The position numbers and the translations under genes were made by a program. Positions 28,117 to 34,284 of a stretch of 48,907 nt of DNA are shown one piece after another. The notes beneath the pieces are model-generated. The model worked only from the letters and a program-made list of their open reading frames with translations. It was not told where the DNA came from and did not search any database. This stretch comes from Flavobacteriales bacterium (GTDB lineage Bacteria; Bacteroidota; Bacteroidia; Flavobacteriales; BACL11), in NCBI GenBank assembly GCA_002712715.1, contig PAUF01000016.1:1-48907 (forward strand), read 5' to 3'. How positions within the stretch are numbered: the stretch's first letter is position 1; each line of letters starts with the position of its first letter.

Positions 28117-29376
28117 TTATAGATTAAACACTTTTTTCACTTCTTCAATACAATCTAATTTTTCCCAAGTAAAAGTTTCAACATTGAATTCTTGATCTTT
28201 TCCACCAACTTTAAAATAAACTTTCTTTTCTTCAGGATTTCTTCCCATATGACCGTAAGCTGCGGTCTCAGAATAAATAGGATTTTTTAATTTAAGTCGT
28301 TTTATAATTGATGCTGGCTTAAGATTGAAACATTCCATAGTATTTACAATATCTGCAATTTCCCCATCACTCATATTTACCTTGCTACTCTGGAAGGTGT
28401 CAATAAAAACACCCATAGGTTCAGCAACTCCAATTGCATATGAAACTTGAACTAAAATTCTATCAGCTATTCCAGCAGCTACTAGATTTTTCGCAATATG
28501 TCTTGTTGCATAAGCAGCGGACCTATCTACTTTTGAAGGGTCTTTTCCAGAAAAAGCGCCACCACCATGAGCCCCTTTTCCTCCATATGTGTCAACTATA
28601 ATTTTTCGGCCAGTTAATCCAGTATCGCCATGAGGTCCTCCAATCACAAATTTTCCAGTTGGGTTTACATGATACTTTTCTTTGCCAAAAAGATTTTTAT
28701 TTTCATCAGTTAATTGAGTAATTATTTTAGGAATAAGAATTTGTTTAACATCTTCTTCTATTTTTTGCTGCATTACTTTTTCTTCTGCAAAATCGTCATG
28801 TTGGGTAGACAGTACTATATCTGTAATTTGAAGAGGAATATGATTGTCATCATATTCTAATGTTACTTGAGATTTAGAATCGGGTCTTAGATACTTCATT
28901 TCAATCCCTTCTCTTCTTATCTTCGCTAGCTCTATTAATAATTTATGTGATATGTCTAATGCTAGAGGCATCAAGTTTTCTGTTTCATTGGTAGCATACC
29001 CAAACATCATCCCTTGATCTCCAGCGCCTTGTTCACCGTGAAGACCTTCTCCTTCTATAACGCCCTGTCTAATATCAGATGATTGTTCATGTATTGCTGA
29101 AAGTACTCCACAACTATCGGCATCAAACCTATATTCTGATTTTGTATATCCAATTTTTCTAATTACACTTCTAGCAATCCGTTCAACATCTACGTATCCA
29201 TTAGTTTTTACTTCTCCACTTAAAACTGTTAGTCCAGTTGTTACTAGGGTTTCGCAAGCAACTTTGGATTCGGGATCTTGTGCTATGAAATTATCTAATA
29301 GAGCATCTGATATTTGATCTGCTACTTTGTCTGGATGTCCTTCTGAAACTGATTCAGATGTAAAAAAGTATGACAT
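28117..29376 (-). CDS. metK: S-adenosylmethionine synthetase
   Basis: [79 protein letters not shown]. Confidence 0.98.
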
Positions 29377-29401: not shown

Positions 29402-29409
29402 GATTTGGC
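29402..29409 (-). promoter_or_regulatory. candidate anti-aptamer element of the metK riboswitch
   Basis: Minus strand GCCAAATC is a perfect 8-nt complement of aptamer core GATTTGGC (29465-29472, minus). Confidence 0.5.
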
Positions 29410-29430: not shown

Positions 29431-29480
29431 CTATTTTAGCATTTTTTTTCTGTGGTTGCAATAGGCCAAATCTTTCCACA
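29431..29480 (-). ncRNA. SAM-II (or SAM-V)-like SAM riboswitch aptamer in the metK leader
   Basis: Minus strand TGTGG-AAA-GATTTG-GCCTAT-TGCA-ACCACA-GAAAAAAAAT-GCTAAA-ATAG. P1 TGTGG(29476-29480)/CCACA(29451-29455); conserved-looking GATTTG (29467-29472), TTGCA (29457-29461), GCTAAA (29435-29440); pseudoknot helix CTATT(29460-29464)/AATAG(29431-29435), or 4 bp CTAT/ATAG. Confidence 0.78.
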
Positions 29481-29492
29481 AAATTTGAGTAA

Positions 29493-29500
29493 CAAATATA
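29493..29500 (-). promoter_or_regulatory. -7 box (TATATTTG) for the metK transcript
   Basis: Plus CAAATATA = minus TATATTTG; predicted start a few nt before the riboswitch 5' end. No clear -33 element. Confidence 0.5.
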
Positions 29501-29557: not shown

Positions 29558-29655
29558 AGACTTATCAAGAAAGACGGAGGGAAGGGCCCTGTGATGTCTT
29601 GGCAACCCTGAAAAAGCAGGGTGCCAATTCCCACTCCAAATGGAGACAGATGATG
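29558..29655 (+). ncRNA. SAM-I (S-box) riboswitch upstream of metH
   Basis: CTTATCAAGAAAGACGGAGGGAAGGGCCCTGTGATGTCTTGGCAACC...GGTGCCAATTCC: hallmark S-box core. P1 TTATC(29562-29566)/GATGA(29649-29653), P2 AAGAC(29571-29575)/GTCTT(29596-29600), P3 CCCTG(29606-29610)/CAGGG(29617-29621), P4 CTCC(29634-29637)/GGAG(29642-29645). Confidence 0.95.
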
Positions 29656-29708
29656 AAAAATCCAAAAAAATTTTCTGACATCTATTTTATAAGTCTATAA
29701 AGATTTTT

Positions 29709-31424
29709 ATGAGAAGATTAATTGATAAAATATTGGAAGAAAGAATATTAGTACTGGACGGTGCTATGGGTACAATGATTCAAGGATATAATTTAACAGA
29801 AAGTGATTTTAGAGGTGATAGATTTATTGATTCTATTTATGACCTTAAAGGAAATAATGATGTGTTATCTATTACTCAACCTAATATAGTTTCTGAAATT
29901 CATGAAAAATATTTAGTAGCTGGAGCAGATATAATAGAGACAAATACATTTAGTTCTAATAGTATTGCGCAAGAAGATTATGGATTACAGTCTTCAGTAT
30001 ATGATTTGAATTATGAGTCAGCTAGAATTGCAAAAGATGCGGCTATTAAATACTCTTCTAATGAAAAACCTAGATTTGTAGCTGGTTCAATAGGGCCTAC
30101 TAATAGAACTGCATCTATTTCTCCTGATGTAAATAATCCAGCATATAGAAATATAACATTTGAACAATTAAGAAAATCTTATTATGGTCAAGTTGGTGGT
30201 TTAATTGATGGTGGAGTTGATTTGCTTCTAGTAGAAACAGTTTTTGATACTTTAAACTGTAAAGCTGCATTGTATGCGATTATGCAGATTTTTGAAGAAA
30301 AAAATCTGCAAATTCCGATCATGGTTTCAGGAACAATTACTGATGAAAGTGGTAGAACTCTTTCAGGTCAGACAGCGGAAGCTTTTTTGAATTCAATTTC
30401 TCATGCTCCACTATTAAGTGTAGGATTTAATTGCGCTTTAGGTACTAAAGCTATGCAGCCGTATATACAAGAGTTATCAAAGAAATCACCATATTTTATT
30501 AGTGCTTTTCCAAATGCAGGATTACCAAATGAAATGGGAAATTATGATGACACTCCAACAGCGATGTCTAAACAACTTGGTGATTTTTTAGATTTAGGTA
30601 TTGTAAATATTATAGGTGGATGTTGTGGTACTACACCAGATCATATTAGAGAGTTCGTTGAAATTTCAAAAAATTTTAATCCCAGAAAAATACCTAAAAT
30701 TGAAAAGAAATTAAGATTAAGTGGTCTTGAATCAGTTACAGTAGATTCTAATTCAAATTTTGTAAATATAGGTGAGAGAACTAATGTTATGGGTTCTAGT
30801 AAGTTTATGAAACTTATTAAAAATAAAGAATACGAGTTAGCTTTATCTGTTGCTCTAGATCAAGTAGAGAATGGTGCTCAAGTTATAGATATTAATATGG
30901 ATGATGGGTTAATAGATGGAATGGAATCTATGACAGTTTTTTTAAATATGATAGCTTCAGATCCGGATATTTCTAAGGTTCCGATAATGATAGATTCTTC
31001 TAAATGGGAGATTATAGAAGCTGGATTAAAATGTTTACAAGGTAAAGGGATTGTTAATTCTATATCCTTAAAAGAAGGAGAATCTATTTTTATTGAACAA
31101 GCTAAAAAGATAATGAGATATGGGGCAGCGGTAGTCATTATGGCTTTTGATGAAAATGGGCAGGCTGTAGATTATAATGATAAGATACGAATATGTAAAA
31201 GAGCTTATGATATTTTAGTTGACAATATTGGATTCCCTGCTGAGGATATTATATTTGATCCAAATATTCTTACTGTTGCTACTGGGATTGAAGATCATGA
31301 TAATTATGCTATAGATTTTATAAGATCTATAAAGTGGGTAAAGAAAAATCTACCATATGCAAAAGTTAGTGGGGGAGTAAGTAATGTCTCTTTTTCTTTT
31401 AGAGGTAATAATAAGGTAAGGTAG
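29709..31424 (+). CDS. metH: methionine synthase (B12-dependent), N-terminal part: homocysteine-binding domain and part of the pterin-binding domain
   Basis: [80 protein letters not shown] then TAG. Confidence 0.93.
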
Positions 31425-31427
31425 GCC

Positions 31428-33326
31428 ATGCATTCAGCTTTTCTTTTTCATGCGATTAAAAATGGAATGGATATGGGTATTGTTAATGCAGGTATGATCG
31501 AAGTGTATTCTGACATTCCATCGGATCTTTTAAATGCTGTAGAAGATGTTATATTTAACAATCATTCTTTATCTACTGAAAAACTTTTAGAGTTAGCAGA
31601 AATGTATAAGGGTAAGGGTAAACAAAAAGTAGAGGATCTTTCTTGGCGAGAAAAAAGTGTGGGAAAAAGATTGGAATACTCATTAGTTAAAGGAATTGTA
31701 AAATATATCGAGGATGACACAGAGGAAGCTAGAACAAATGCTAAAAAACCCCTTGATGTAATAGAAGGTCCTTTAATGAATGGAATGAATATAGTTGGTG
31801 ATCTTTTTGGAAGCGGTAAGATGTTTCTTCCTCAAGTTGTGAAGAGCGCTAGGGTAATGAAGAAGTCTGTGGCTTATCTGACTCCATATATAGAAAATGA
31901 TAAAACTCAAATTAAGAAGTCAGGTAAAATACTTATGGCAACTGTAAAAGGAGATGTGCATGATATTGGTAAGAATATTGTTTCGGTTGTTTTATCATGT
32001 AATAATTTTGAGATTATTGATTTAGGTGTAATGGTTTCATGTGAAAAAATTCTTTCGGCCGCTAAAAATCATAATGTTGATATGATTGGTTTAAGTGGAT
32101 TAATTACCCCTTCATTAGATGAAATGTCTTTCGTTGCTGAACAAATGCAATTAAATAATTTCAATATACCATTAATTATTGGTGGAGCTACTACATCTAA
32201 GGTTCATACTGCGGTAAAGCTAATGGATAAGTATACTAATAATATGATTGTTCATATTTTGGACGCTTCTAAATCTGTAAATATTTGCAATACTATTTTG
32301 GGTCCCAATGTTGAAGATTTTAAAAGAGATTTAAAGCAAGAATACACTGATATTAAGAAAAATTATTTAAACAGATTAAAATCTAAAGATCTTATTTCAT
32401 TAGAAGATGCTCGAAAAAATTCATTTAAACTATCAGCTAATTATCAATCAGTTGAACCTAATACTTTAGGGGTAAGTTTGTATGATGAAATTTCTGTTGC
32501 ATCGGTTGTTCCATATATAGACTGGACACCTTTCTTTATTTCTTGGGAAATGAGAGGTAAGTTCCCTAAAATATTTGATGATGAAAAATATGGTGTCGAA
32601 GCTAAAAAGCTTTATGATGACGCTAATCAAATGATTCAGAAAATTATTAATCATGATTGGGTGATTTTAAAATCTTTAGTTGGAATATGGAACGCTCGAT
32701 CTGTTGGAGATGATGTTGAAGTATATCAAAACGGTCATAAAATAGAAACACTTAATTTTCTTAGGCAACAATCTAGAAAGAAAAATTATAATATGTGTTT
32801 GTCAGATTATATTTCTAAAGAAAACGATTATATAGGTGCATTTATATGTACAGCGGGAATTGGTATAGATAAAAAGTTACAAGAATTTGATAATCAGTTG
32901 GATGATTATAATAGTATCCTATTGAAGTCAATTGCAGATCGACTAGCAGAAGCTTTAACTGAATATATGCATGAAAAAGTAAGAAAAGAAATTTGGGGAT
33001 ATGGTAAAAATGAGAATTTTAATAATGAAGAGTTAATTAAAGAAAATTATAAAGGAATAAGGCCAGCTCCAGGTTACACAGCATGTCCTGATCATACTGA
33101 AAAATTAAAGCTATTTCTATTATTAGGTTCTGAGAAGATAGGAGTTGATCTTACAGAAAATATGGCAATGACACCCAATGCTACCGTATGTGGATATTAT
33201 TTTTCTTACCCTGAATCTAAATATTTTACAGTTGGAAAAGTTTTAGATGACCAAATTAATGATTATGCTAAAAGAAAAAATATGACCTCAAAGGAAGTTA
33301 ATCAATGGTTGAGAACAAATATTTGA
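31428..33326 (+). CDS. metH: methionine synthase, C-terminal part: rest of pterin domain, cobalamin-binding and activation domains
   Basis: Same frame as the upstream [25 protein letters not shown] continues the pterin domain; [30 protein letters not shown] cobalamin motif; [17 protein letters not shown] activation domain. Confidence 0.93.
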
Positions 33327-33330
33327 AAAT

Positions 33331-34284
33331 ATGAAAGTAAAAGAACATTTATCAAAATCTAAAGAAACCCTGTTTTCGTTTGAGATTTTACCTCCTTTGA
33401 AAGGAACAAGTATAAACTCAATTTATAAAACACTCGATCCTTTAATGGAATTTTCACCACCTTTTATTGATGTCACATATCATCGTGAAGAATATGTATA
33501 TAAAAAAAAGAAGAATGGTTTGTTAGAGAGGATTTCTGTAAGAAAAAGGCCAGGTACTGTAGGAATTTGTGCTGCAATAATGAATAAATATCATGTTGAT
33601 ACAGTTCCTCATATAATTTGCGGAGGTTTCAGTAAGGAAGAAACTGAAAATGCTCTTATTGATTTGAATTTTTTAGGAATTGATAATGTGTTAGTTTTAA
33701 GAGGAGATCCTATTAAATCAGAAACATATTTTTCCCCAGATAAAAATGGACATCAATATGCTTCTGAACTTTTAGAGCAAGTAATAGATATGAATAATGG
33801 TAATTATTTAGATGATGAGTTAAGTAATTCATCGCCTACTGATTTTTGCATTGGTGTTGCTGGATATCCTGAAAAACACTTTGAAGCAGCCAATATGCGT
33901 TCAGATATTCATTTTTTAAAGAAAAAGGTAAAGGCTGGAGCTGATTATATTGTGACTCAAATGTTTTTCGATAATCAATGTTATTTTGATTTTGTCAAAA
34001 TGTGTAGAGAAAATGATATTGATATTCCAATTATCCCAGGAATTAAACCAATCTCAACATTAAATCAATTAAAGTTGCTTCCTCATAGATTTCACTTGAG
34101 TTTACCAAATAATTTGGTAGATGAAGTTCTTAAATGCAAGAACAATGATGATATAAGATTAGTGGGTATTGACTGGGCTAAGGAACAAACTAGAGAATTG
34201 ATAGAATTTGGAGCCCCATGTATTCATTTTTATACGATGGGAAAGTCAGATAATGTTCAGCAAATAGTATCAGATTTCAAATAA
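33331..34284 (+). CDS. metF: methylenetetrahydrofolate reductase
   Basis: FSFEILPPLKG, FIDVTYHREEYVY, LGIDNVLVLRGDP, KVKAGADYIVTQMFFDNQCYFDFV. Confidence 0.96.
   Translation: MKVKEHLSKSKETLFSFEILPPLKGTSINSIYKTLDPLMEFSPPFIDVTYHREEYVYKKKKNGLLERISVRKRPGTVGICAAIMNKYHVDTVPHIICGGFSKEETENALIDLNFLGIDNVLVLRGDPIKSETYFSPDKNGHQYASELLEQVIDMNNGNYLDDELSNSSPTDFCIGVAGYPEKHFEAANMRSDIHFLKKKVKAGADYIVTQMFFDNQCYFDFVKMCRENDIDIPIIPGIKPISTLNQLKLLPHRFHLSLPNNLVDEVLKCKNNDDIRLVGIDWAKEQTRELIEFGAPCIHFYTMGKSDNVQQIVSDFK

Follow-up and report, generated by a model that had tools for sequence, protein, structure and literature searches.

A SAM-II long-loop aptamer ahead of metK in a Flavobacteriales bacterium, its putative anti-aptamer strand and its divergent SAM-I partner

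Introduction

The SAM-II long-loop family (RF01726) was introduced in 2010 under the entry 'SAM-II long loops; Bacteroidetes, marine' (Weinberg 2010, PMC2864571, Table 1), Bacteroides having already been part of the SAM-II alignment of 2005 (Corbino 2005, PMC1273637). The alphaproteobacterial SAM-II elements (RF00521; PMC1273637; e.g., those of S. meliloti metA and metZ, PMC9373788) share with the element analyzed here the binding core and the H-type pseudoknot topology, but rely on terminators or on masking of the Shine-Dalgarno sequence by the pseudoknot, neither of which was found in the latter. How SAM-II elements act in Bacteroidota is not addressed in the literature that we searched, and Shine-Dalgarno masking cannot explain it. 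Two SAM classes are known to lie close together for methionine genes in the tandem SAM-II/SAM-V and SAM-II/SAM-I-IV arrangements, which share one transcript; the 2022 review of tandem riboswitches covers same-transcript pairs only (PMC9481103). A survey of 2007 found no species with both SAM-I and SAM-II (PMC2258182).

Here we analyze a contig of 48,907 nucleotides (PAUF01000016.1, assembly GCA_002712715.1; hereinafter the window) from a Flavobacteriales bacterium. The aptamer ahead of its metK gene does not differ from that of the long-loop family, with which it has the phylum, the sequence, P1, the core motifs and an A-rich long loop in common; the main text of PMC2864571 mentions neither an anti-aptamer strand nor a SAM-I partner. 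Unlike the tandem pairs, the SAM-II and SAM-I aptamers of the window lie on opposite strands, in two transcripts that share one 73-nt spacer.

Results

A SAM-II long-loop aptamer of known type precedes metK

An earlier note on this DNA had proposed a pseudoknot riboswitch of SAM-II (or SAM-V) type ahead of metK, in a gene context and lineage that it considered atypical. The elements which it listed on the minus strand (P1 TGTGG/CCACA, GATTTG, TTGCA, GCTAAA and P2 CTATT/AATAG) are all present, and its 50-mer corresponds exactly to 29480-29431, with 54 nt between it and the ATG of metK at 29376 (Table 1). A cmscan search of the whole window with Rfam 15 recovered RF01726 over its full length (65.2 bits, cut-off 44, E 2e-10), and this is the only match to the family in the 1.55-Mb, 91% complete genome. 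Given this score, metK as the next gene and the lack of a second match in the genome, the element is a real member of the riboswitch family, far above chance. The alphaproteobacterial model SAM_alpha (RF00521) remained below its cut-off (18.3 versus 36 bits). A SAM-V identity, to which the common binding core lends some appeal, can practically be dismissed: the SAM-V model gave no match at E<=10 in the search that assigned 65.2 bits to SAM-II, and we regard this part of the note's proposal as refuted by the model scores.

Table 1. Features of the metK-metH intergenic region and its flanking genes.
Feature	Position	Strand	Basis
SAM-II long-loop aptamer RF01726	29426..29485	-	cmscan 65.2 bits, model 1-60/60
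P1 5' strand TGTGG	29476..29480	-	sequence and P1 covariation in relatives
P1 3' strand CCACA	29451..29455	-	sequence and P1 covariation in relatives
P2 (pseudoknot) 5' strand CTATT	29460..29464	-	sequence
P2 (pseudoknot) 3' strand AATAG	29431..29435	-	sequence
Aptamer core GATTTGGC, putative target of anti-aptamer strand	29465..29472	-	ATTTGGC invariant in 31 family leaders
Putative anti-aptamer strand GCCAAATC	29402..29409	-	conserved family block; helix of at least 7 bp in 34/36; duplex tests against shuffled and swapped leaders
Probable -7 element TATATTTG (TAnnTTTG) of the metK promoter, Bacteroidota type	29493..29500	-	sequence; position kept in most family members
metK, SAM synthetase	28117..29376	-	TIGR01034, 514 bits over cut-off; only metK in genome
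SAM-I aptamer RF00162, divergent partner ahead of metH-metF	29559..29656	+	cmscan 72.4 bits, cut-off 44.4
Putative SAM-I-leader anti-aptamer strand, complementary to 29559-29582	29671..29696	+	duplex -17.9 kcal/mol versus -10.3 shuffled; in predicted free fold
metH, methionine synthase, in-frame TAG at 31422-31424	29709..33326	+	NF007024/TIGR02082 on both halves; 1 TAG inside
metF, methylenetetrahydrofolate reductase	33331..34284	+	TIGR00676, 313 bits over cut-off

Covariation in the leaders of relatives, which the note had named as a check, is two-sided for P1: among 172 leaders its second pair reads T-A in 95 and A-T in 76, with a single leader unpaired, and the same compensatory change appears in an alignment with controls (U-A 31, A-U 21, other 1; n=53). 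The pairing of P2 is found in 88% of cells across families, with changes in that alignment being one-sided only, and four leaders show CTG/CAG replaced by CCG/CGG. P2 is kept better outside the window's family (as CTG/CAG) than within it, where one mismatch is found in the majority of members; that of the window pairs in full.

The aptamer thus belongs to a known family and occupies its usual place. The lineage is hardly atypical, since RF01726 was described from Bacteroidetes (PMC2864571, Table 1) and matches 203 of the 298 genomes sampled from the window's order; nor is the gene context, metK being the usual target (all 41 of the first 41 loci inspected read into a protein with a MetK N-terminus). 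A pattern search likewise placed the motif at 40 of 80 named Bacteroidota metK loci, including those of Flavobacterium, Polaribacter, Chryseobacterium, Bacteroidales and Muribaculaceae. Both SAM-I and SAM-II are present in 166 of the 298 genomes, which contradicts the 2007 statement that no species has both (PMC2258182).

SAM-II and SAM-I aptamers face away from each other across a promoter spacer

Beyond anything in the earlier note, the metK leader has a partner on the other strand, an ordinary SAM-I (S box) aptamer ahead of metH-metF. The two aptamers lie back-to-back, their starts separated by 73 nt, and are divergently transcribed. SAM-II was detected in 35 and SAM-I in 30 of 52 genomes from the window's family, and all 25 that have both classes show the divergent pair, with gaps of 64-121 nt; comparably tight pairs were seen outside the family as well, in at least four genomes belonging to three families (gaps of 48, 76, 90 and 136 nt). 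Genomes with SAM-II only include five in which no metH was found, some of these being incomplete. The SAM-I-only genomes gave no SAM-II match at E<=0.5; in five such genomes of the family metK is still the divergent neighbor. We found no description of the divergent SAM-I/SAM-II arrangement in the open-access literature searched, though an earlier one is possible.

The spacer is filled jointly by the putative metK and metH promoters. Directly before the SAM-II aptamer lies an instance of TAnnTTTG, which we take to be the -7 consensus of Bacteroidota promoters, and transcription of metK is therefore expected to begin only a few bases from P1. The metH side has similar elements that match less exactly.

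A leader strand complementary to the aptamer varies along with it

In the alignment of the window's family, the leader downstream of the pseudoknot contains one conserved block, GCC.A.T, ahead of metK, and this block is complementary to the aptamer core GATTTGGC. In the window it reads GCCAAATC, lies 16 nt downstream of the aptamer and pairs with the core in the aptamer's 5' half. The helix is mostly invariant within the family; in 4 of 31 leaders G-C replaces A-U at its outer pair, with both strands changed. Other lineages have aptamer/leader pairs with changed letters, namely GATTTGTGAAT/ATTCACAAATC, AAGATTTGAC/GTCAAATCTT and GATTTGATT/AATCAAATC, and a further lineage has its own complementary pair, TGAGGAAGGATTTGA with TCAAATCCTTCCTTG. 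The targets vary among lineages and change along with the aptamer. In one leader the block is replaced by TGCCACTTAT, whose pairing partner is the P1 5' strand AAGTGG and not the core.

A search for a perfect helix of at least 7 bp over the TTTG core, which recovers 34 of 36 leaders in the window's family, was rejected as a general test: it recovers few in the remaining lineages, whose targets lie in different stretches of the 5' half or whose helices are imperfect. Accordingly, we computed instead the duplex energy between the aptamer's 5' half and the leader for 158 non-redundant metK leaders from the order. The leaders' own duplexes average -17.79 kcal/mol, versus -11.70 for dinucleotide-shuffled and -11.17 for reversed leaders. 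Overall, 97% of the leaders surpass their own shuffles (p 1.6e-27) and permutation of leaders among genomes gives a mean of only -13.99 (sd 0.22; 0 of 2000 permutations reach the observed value), p values that overstate independence, since neither the permutations nor the pooled tests fully remove shared ancestry; the differing targets across lineages are the stronger argument. Taken singly, 67% of the leaders reach p<0.05, the window's own being borderline (-13.9 versus -9.9, p 0.059). The effect relative to shuffles resides in the 5' half (-6.1, versus -1.0 for the 3' half), and a control stretch upstream of the aptamer shows no such difference (-11.03 versus -10.75, p 0.32). Two families (f10 and f15) display little complementarity.

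The SAM-I leaders show the same feature. Their duplexes average -23.2 versus -13.2 kcal/mol for shuffled sequences, with every leader better than its shuffles; these values come from a table in which two overlapping patterns count most loci twice, the distinct loci numbering 22, mostly metH leaders from the family of the window. A small difference is also seen here for the upstream control (-10.0 versus -9.0, p 0.012). In classical S boxes it is the 3' strand of P1 that is paired in the antiterminator; the window's SAM-I leader strand, in contrast, is complementary to the 5' half of the aptamer, and a terminator was not seen.

A proposed OFF switch and its alternatives

These features point to a SAM-II long-loop riboswitch that probably shuts down metK at high SAM through an anti-aptamer expression platform. 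The computations show what the aptamer is, that P1 covaries, that the complementarity is conserved and coevolves, and that an intrinsic terminator is lacking; that the element binds SAM, switches in this direction and does so at the level of translation we infer. As the aptamer begins a few bases past the transcription start, it would fold first. With SAM bound, P1 and the pseudoknot would hold; in its absence GCCAAATC would invade GATTTGGC, and the resulting long helix would disrupt both P1 and the binding pocket. This long helix would represent the ON state, in which the A-rich region before the metK start is open. With SAM, the stabilized pseudoknot would free the strand, which, along with its neighbors, may partly cover the start region and turn metK off.

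In the predicted free fold, the window's metK leader adopts the anti-aptamer helix (-17.3 kcal/mol), while its final 38 nt, which extend past the ATG, stay unpaired; enforcing P1 changes the prediction to -11.1 kcal/mol and brings TCTTT into pairing with AAAGA directly ahead of the ATG. The folding program scores neither the pseudoknot nor SAM, and hence these must supply the difference between the two values. The predicted folds fit an OFF switch in which SAM favors the pseudoknot and the start region becomes partly covered. Across the SAM-II leaders, predicted masking of the start lies slightly above control (gain 0.108 versus 0.072, p 0.0008 for -15..+3; p 0.13 for -30..+3), while the same general test on SAM-I leaders found it absent or reversed. 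Masking of the ribosome site as the last step is thus weakly indicated by these predictions, and we did not retain simple start-codon sequestration as a general rule, the signal being weak for SAM-II and unseen for SAM-I.

This modest masking signal lends some weight to a switch at the level of transcription, where SAM would free the anti-aptamer strand to recruit Rho or allow an intrinsic terminator to form. The strand is pyrimidine-rich, as expected of the complement of a purine-rich aptamer strand, and many alphaproteobacterial SAM-II elements carry terminators (PMC1273637). Against this, the window contains no terminator-like site ahead of metK, and the energies of hairpins followed by T-runs equal those of shuffled sequences over the 158 leaders (-0.41 versus -0.48). 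We consider such a mechanism a minority possibility and favor translational control over Rho-dependent termination. Distinctly less probable is masking of the ribosome-binding site directly by the pseudoknot, the mode of compact marine SAM-II elements, with the downstream complementarity having no role. Such masking is the mechanism described for translational SAM-II (PMC9373788); however, in the window 54 nt lie between the end of the pseudoknot and the ATG, no Shine-Dalgarno-like motif occurs in the pseudoknot, the separation between aptamer and start is 38-112 nt in relatives, and the specificity of the complementarity for the aptamer's 5' half would remain unexplained. The skewed composition and the modest p values of single leaders might suggest that AT-rich or shared composition, and not structure, gives rise to the complementarity, but we judge this very improbable: the complementarity is reproduced neither by dinucleotide shuffles or reversed leaders nor by the upstream control or swapped leaders.

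With translational control by an anti-aptamer strand as the preferred reading, a broader proposal, on which we are evenly divided, is that in Bacteroidota, which largely lack Shine-Dalgarno control, the structurally unrelated SAM-I and SAM-II classes converged on one expression platform, in which an antisense copy of the aptamer's 5' half, placed downstream, refolds the switch when SAM is absent. One family has the two facing each other over a shared promoter spacer, such that SAM synthesis (metK) and methionine synthesis (metH-metF) would be set by the same ligand via two sensors, whose affinity may differ. We could not find an anti-aptamer platform common to two SAM riboswitch classes described in the open-access literature searched, though it may have been described before. 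The coevolving strand offers a directly testable mechanism over hundreds of genomes, some of them from easily grown organisms, and the divergent pair in one intergenic region a natural side-by-side test of why different classes serve one ligand.

Variant loci and the metH reading frame

The in-frame TAG of the window's metH takes the place of a Glu codon in four relatives (VREAMHS), and the other family genomes with a full-length metH match have no stop; the stop reflects a recent nonsense mutation or else an error of sequencing or assembly. Recoding of TAG was rejected as the cause of the split gene, with TAG ending 6 of the 32 window ORFs listed and the relatives having a sense Glu codon. 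One genome has two near-identical divergent SAM-II/SAM-I loci on two contigs, reflecting duplication or else assembly or contamination, and in another the SAM-I adjoining SAM-II falls below the cut-off (36.6 bits) and is perhaps a decaying copy. Finally, five loci of Flavobacterium-like and related genomes have one or two extra hairpins in the A-rich loop of the SAM-II aptamer, which brings these aptamers to more than 100 nt.
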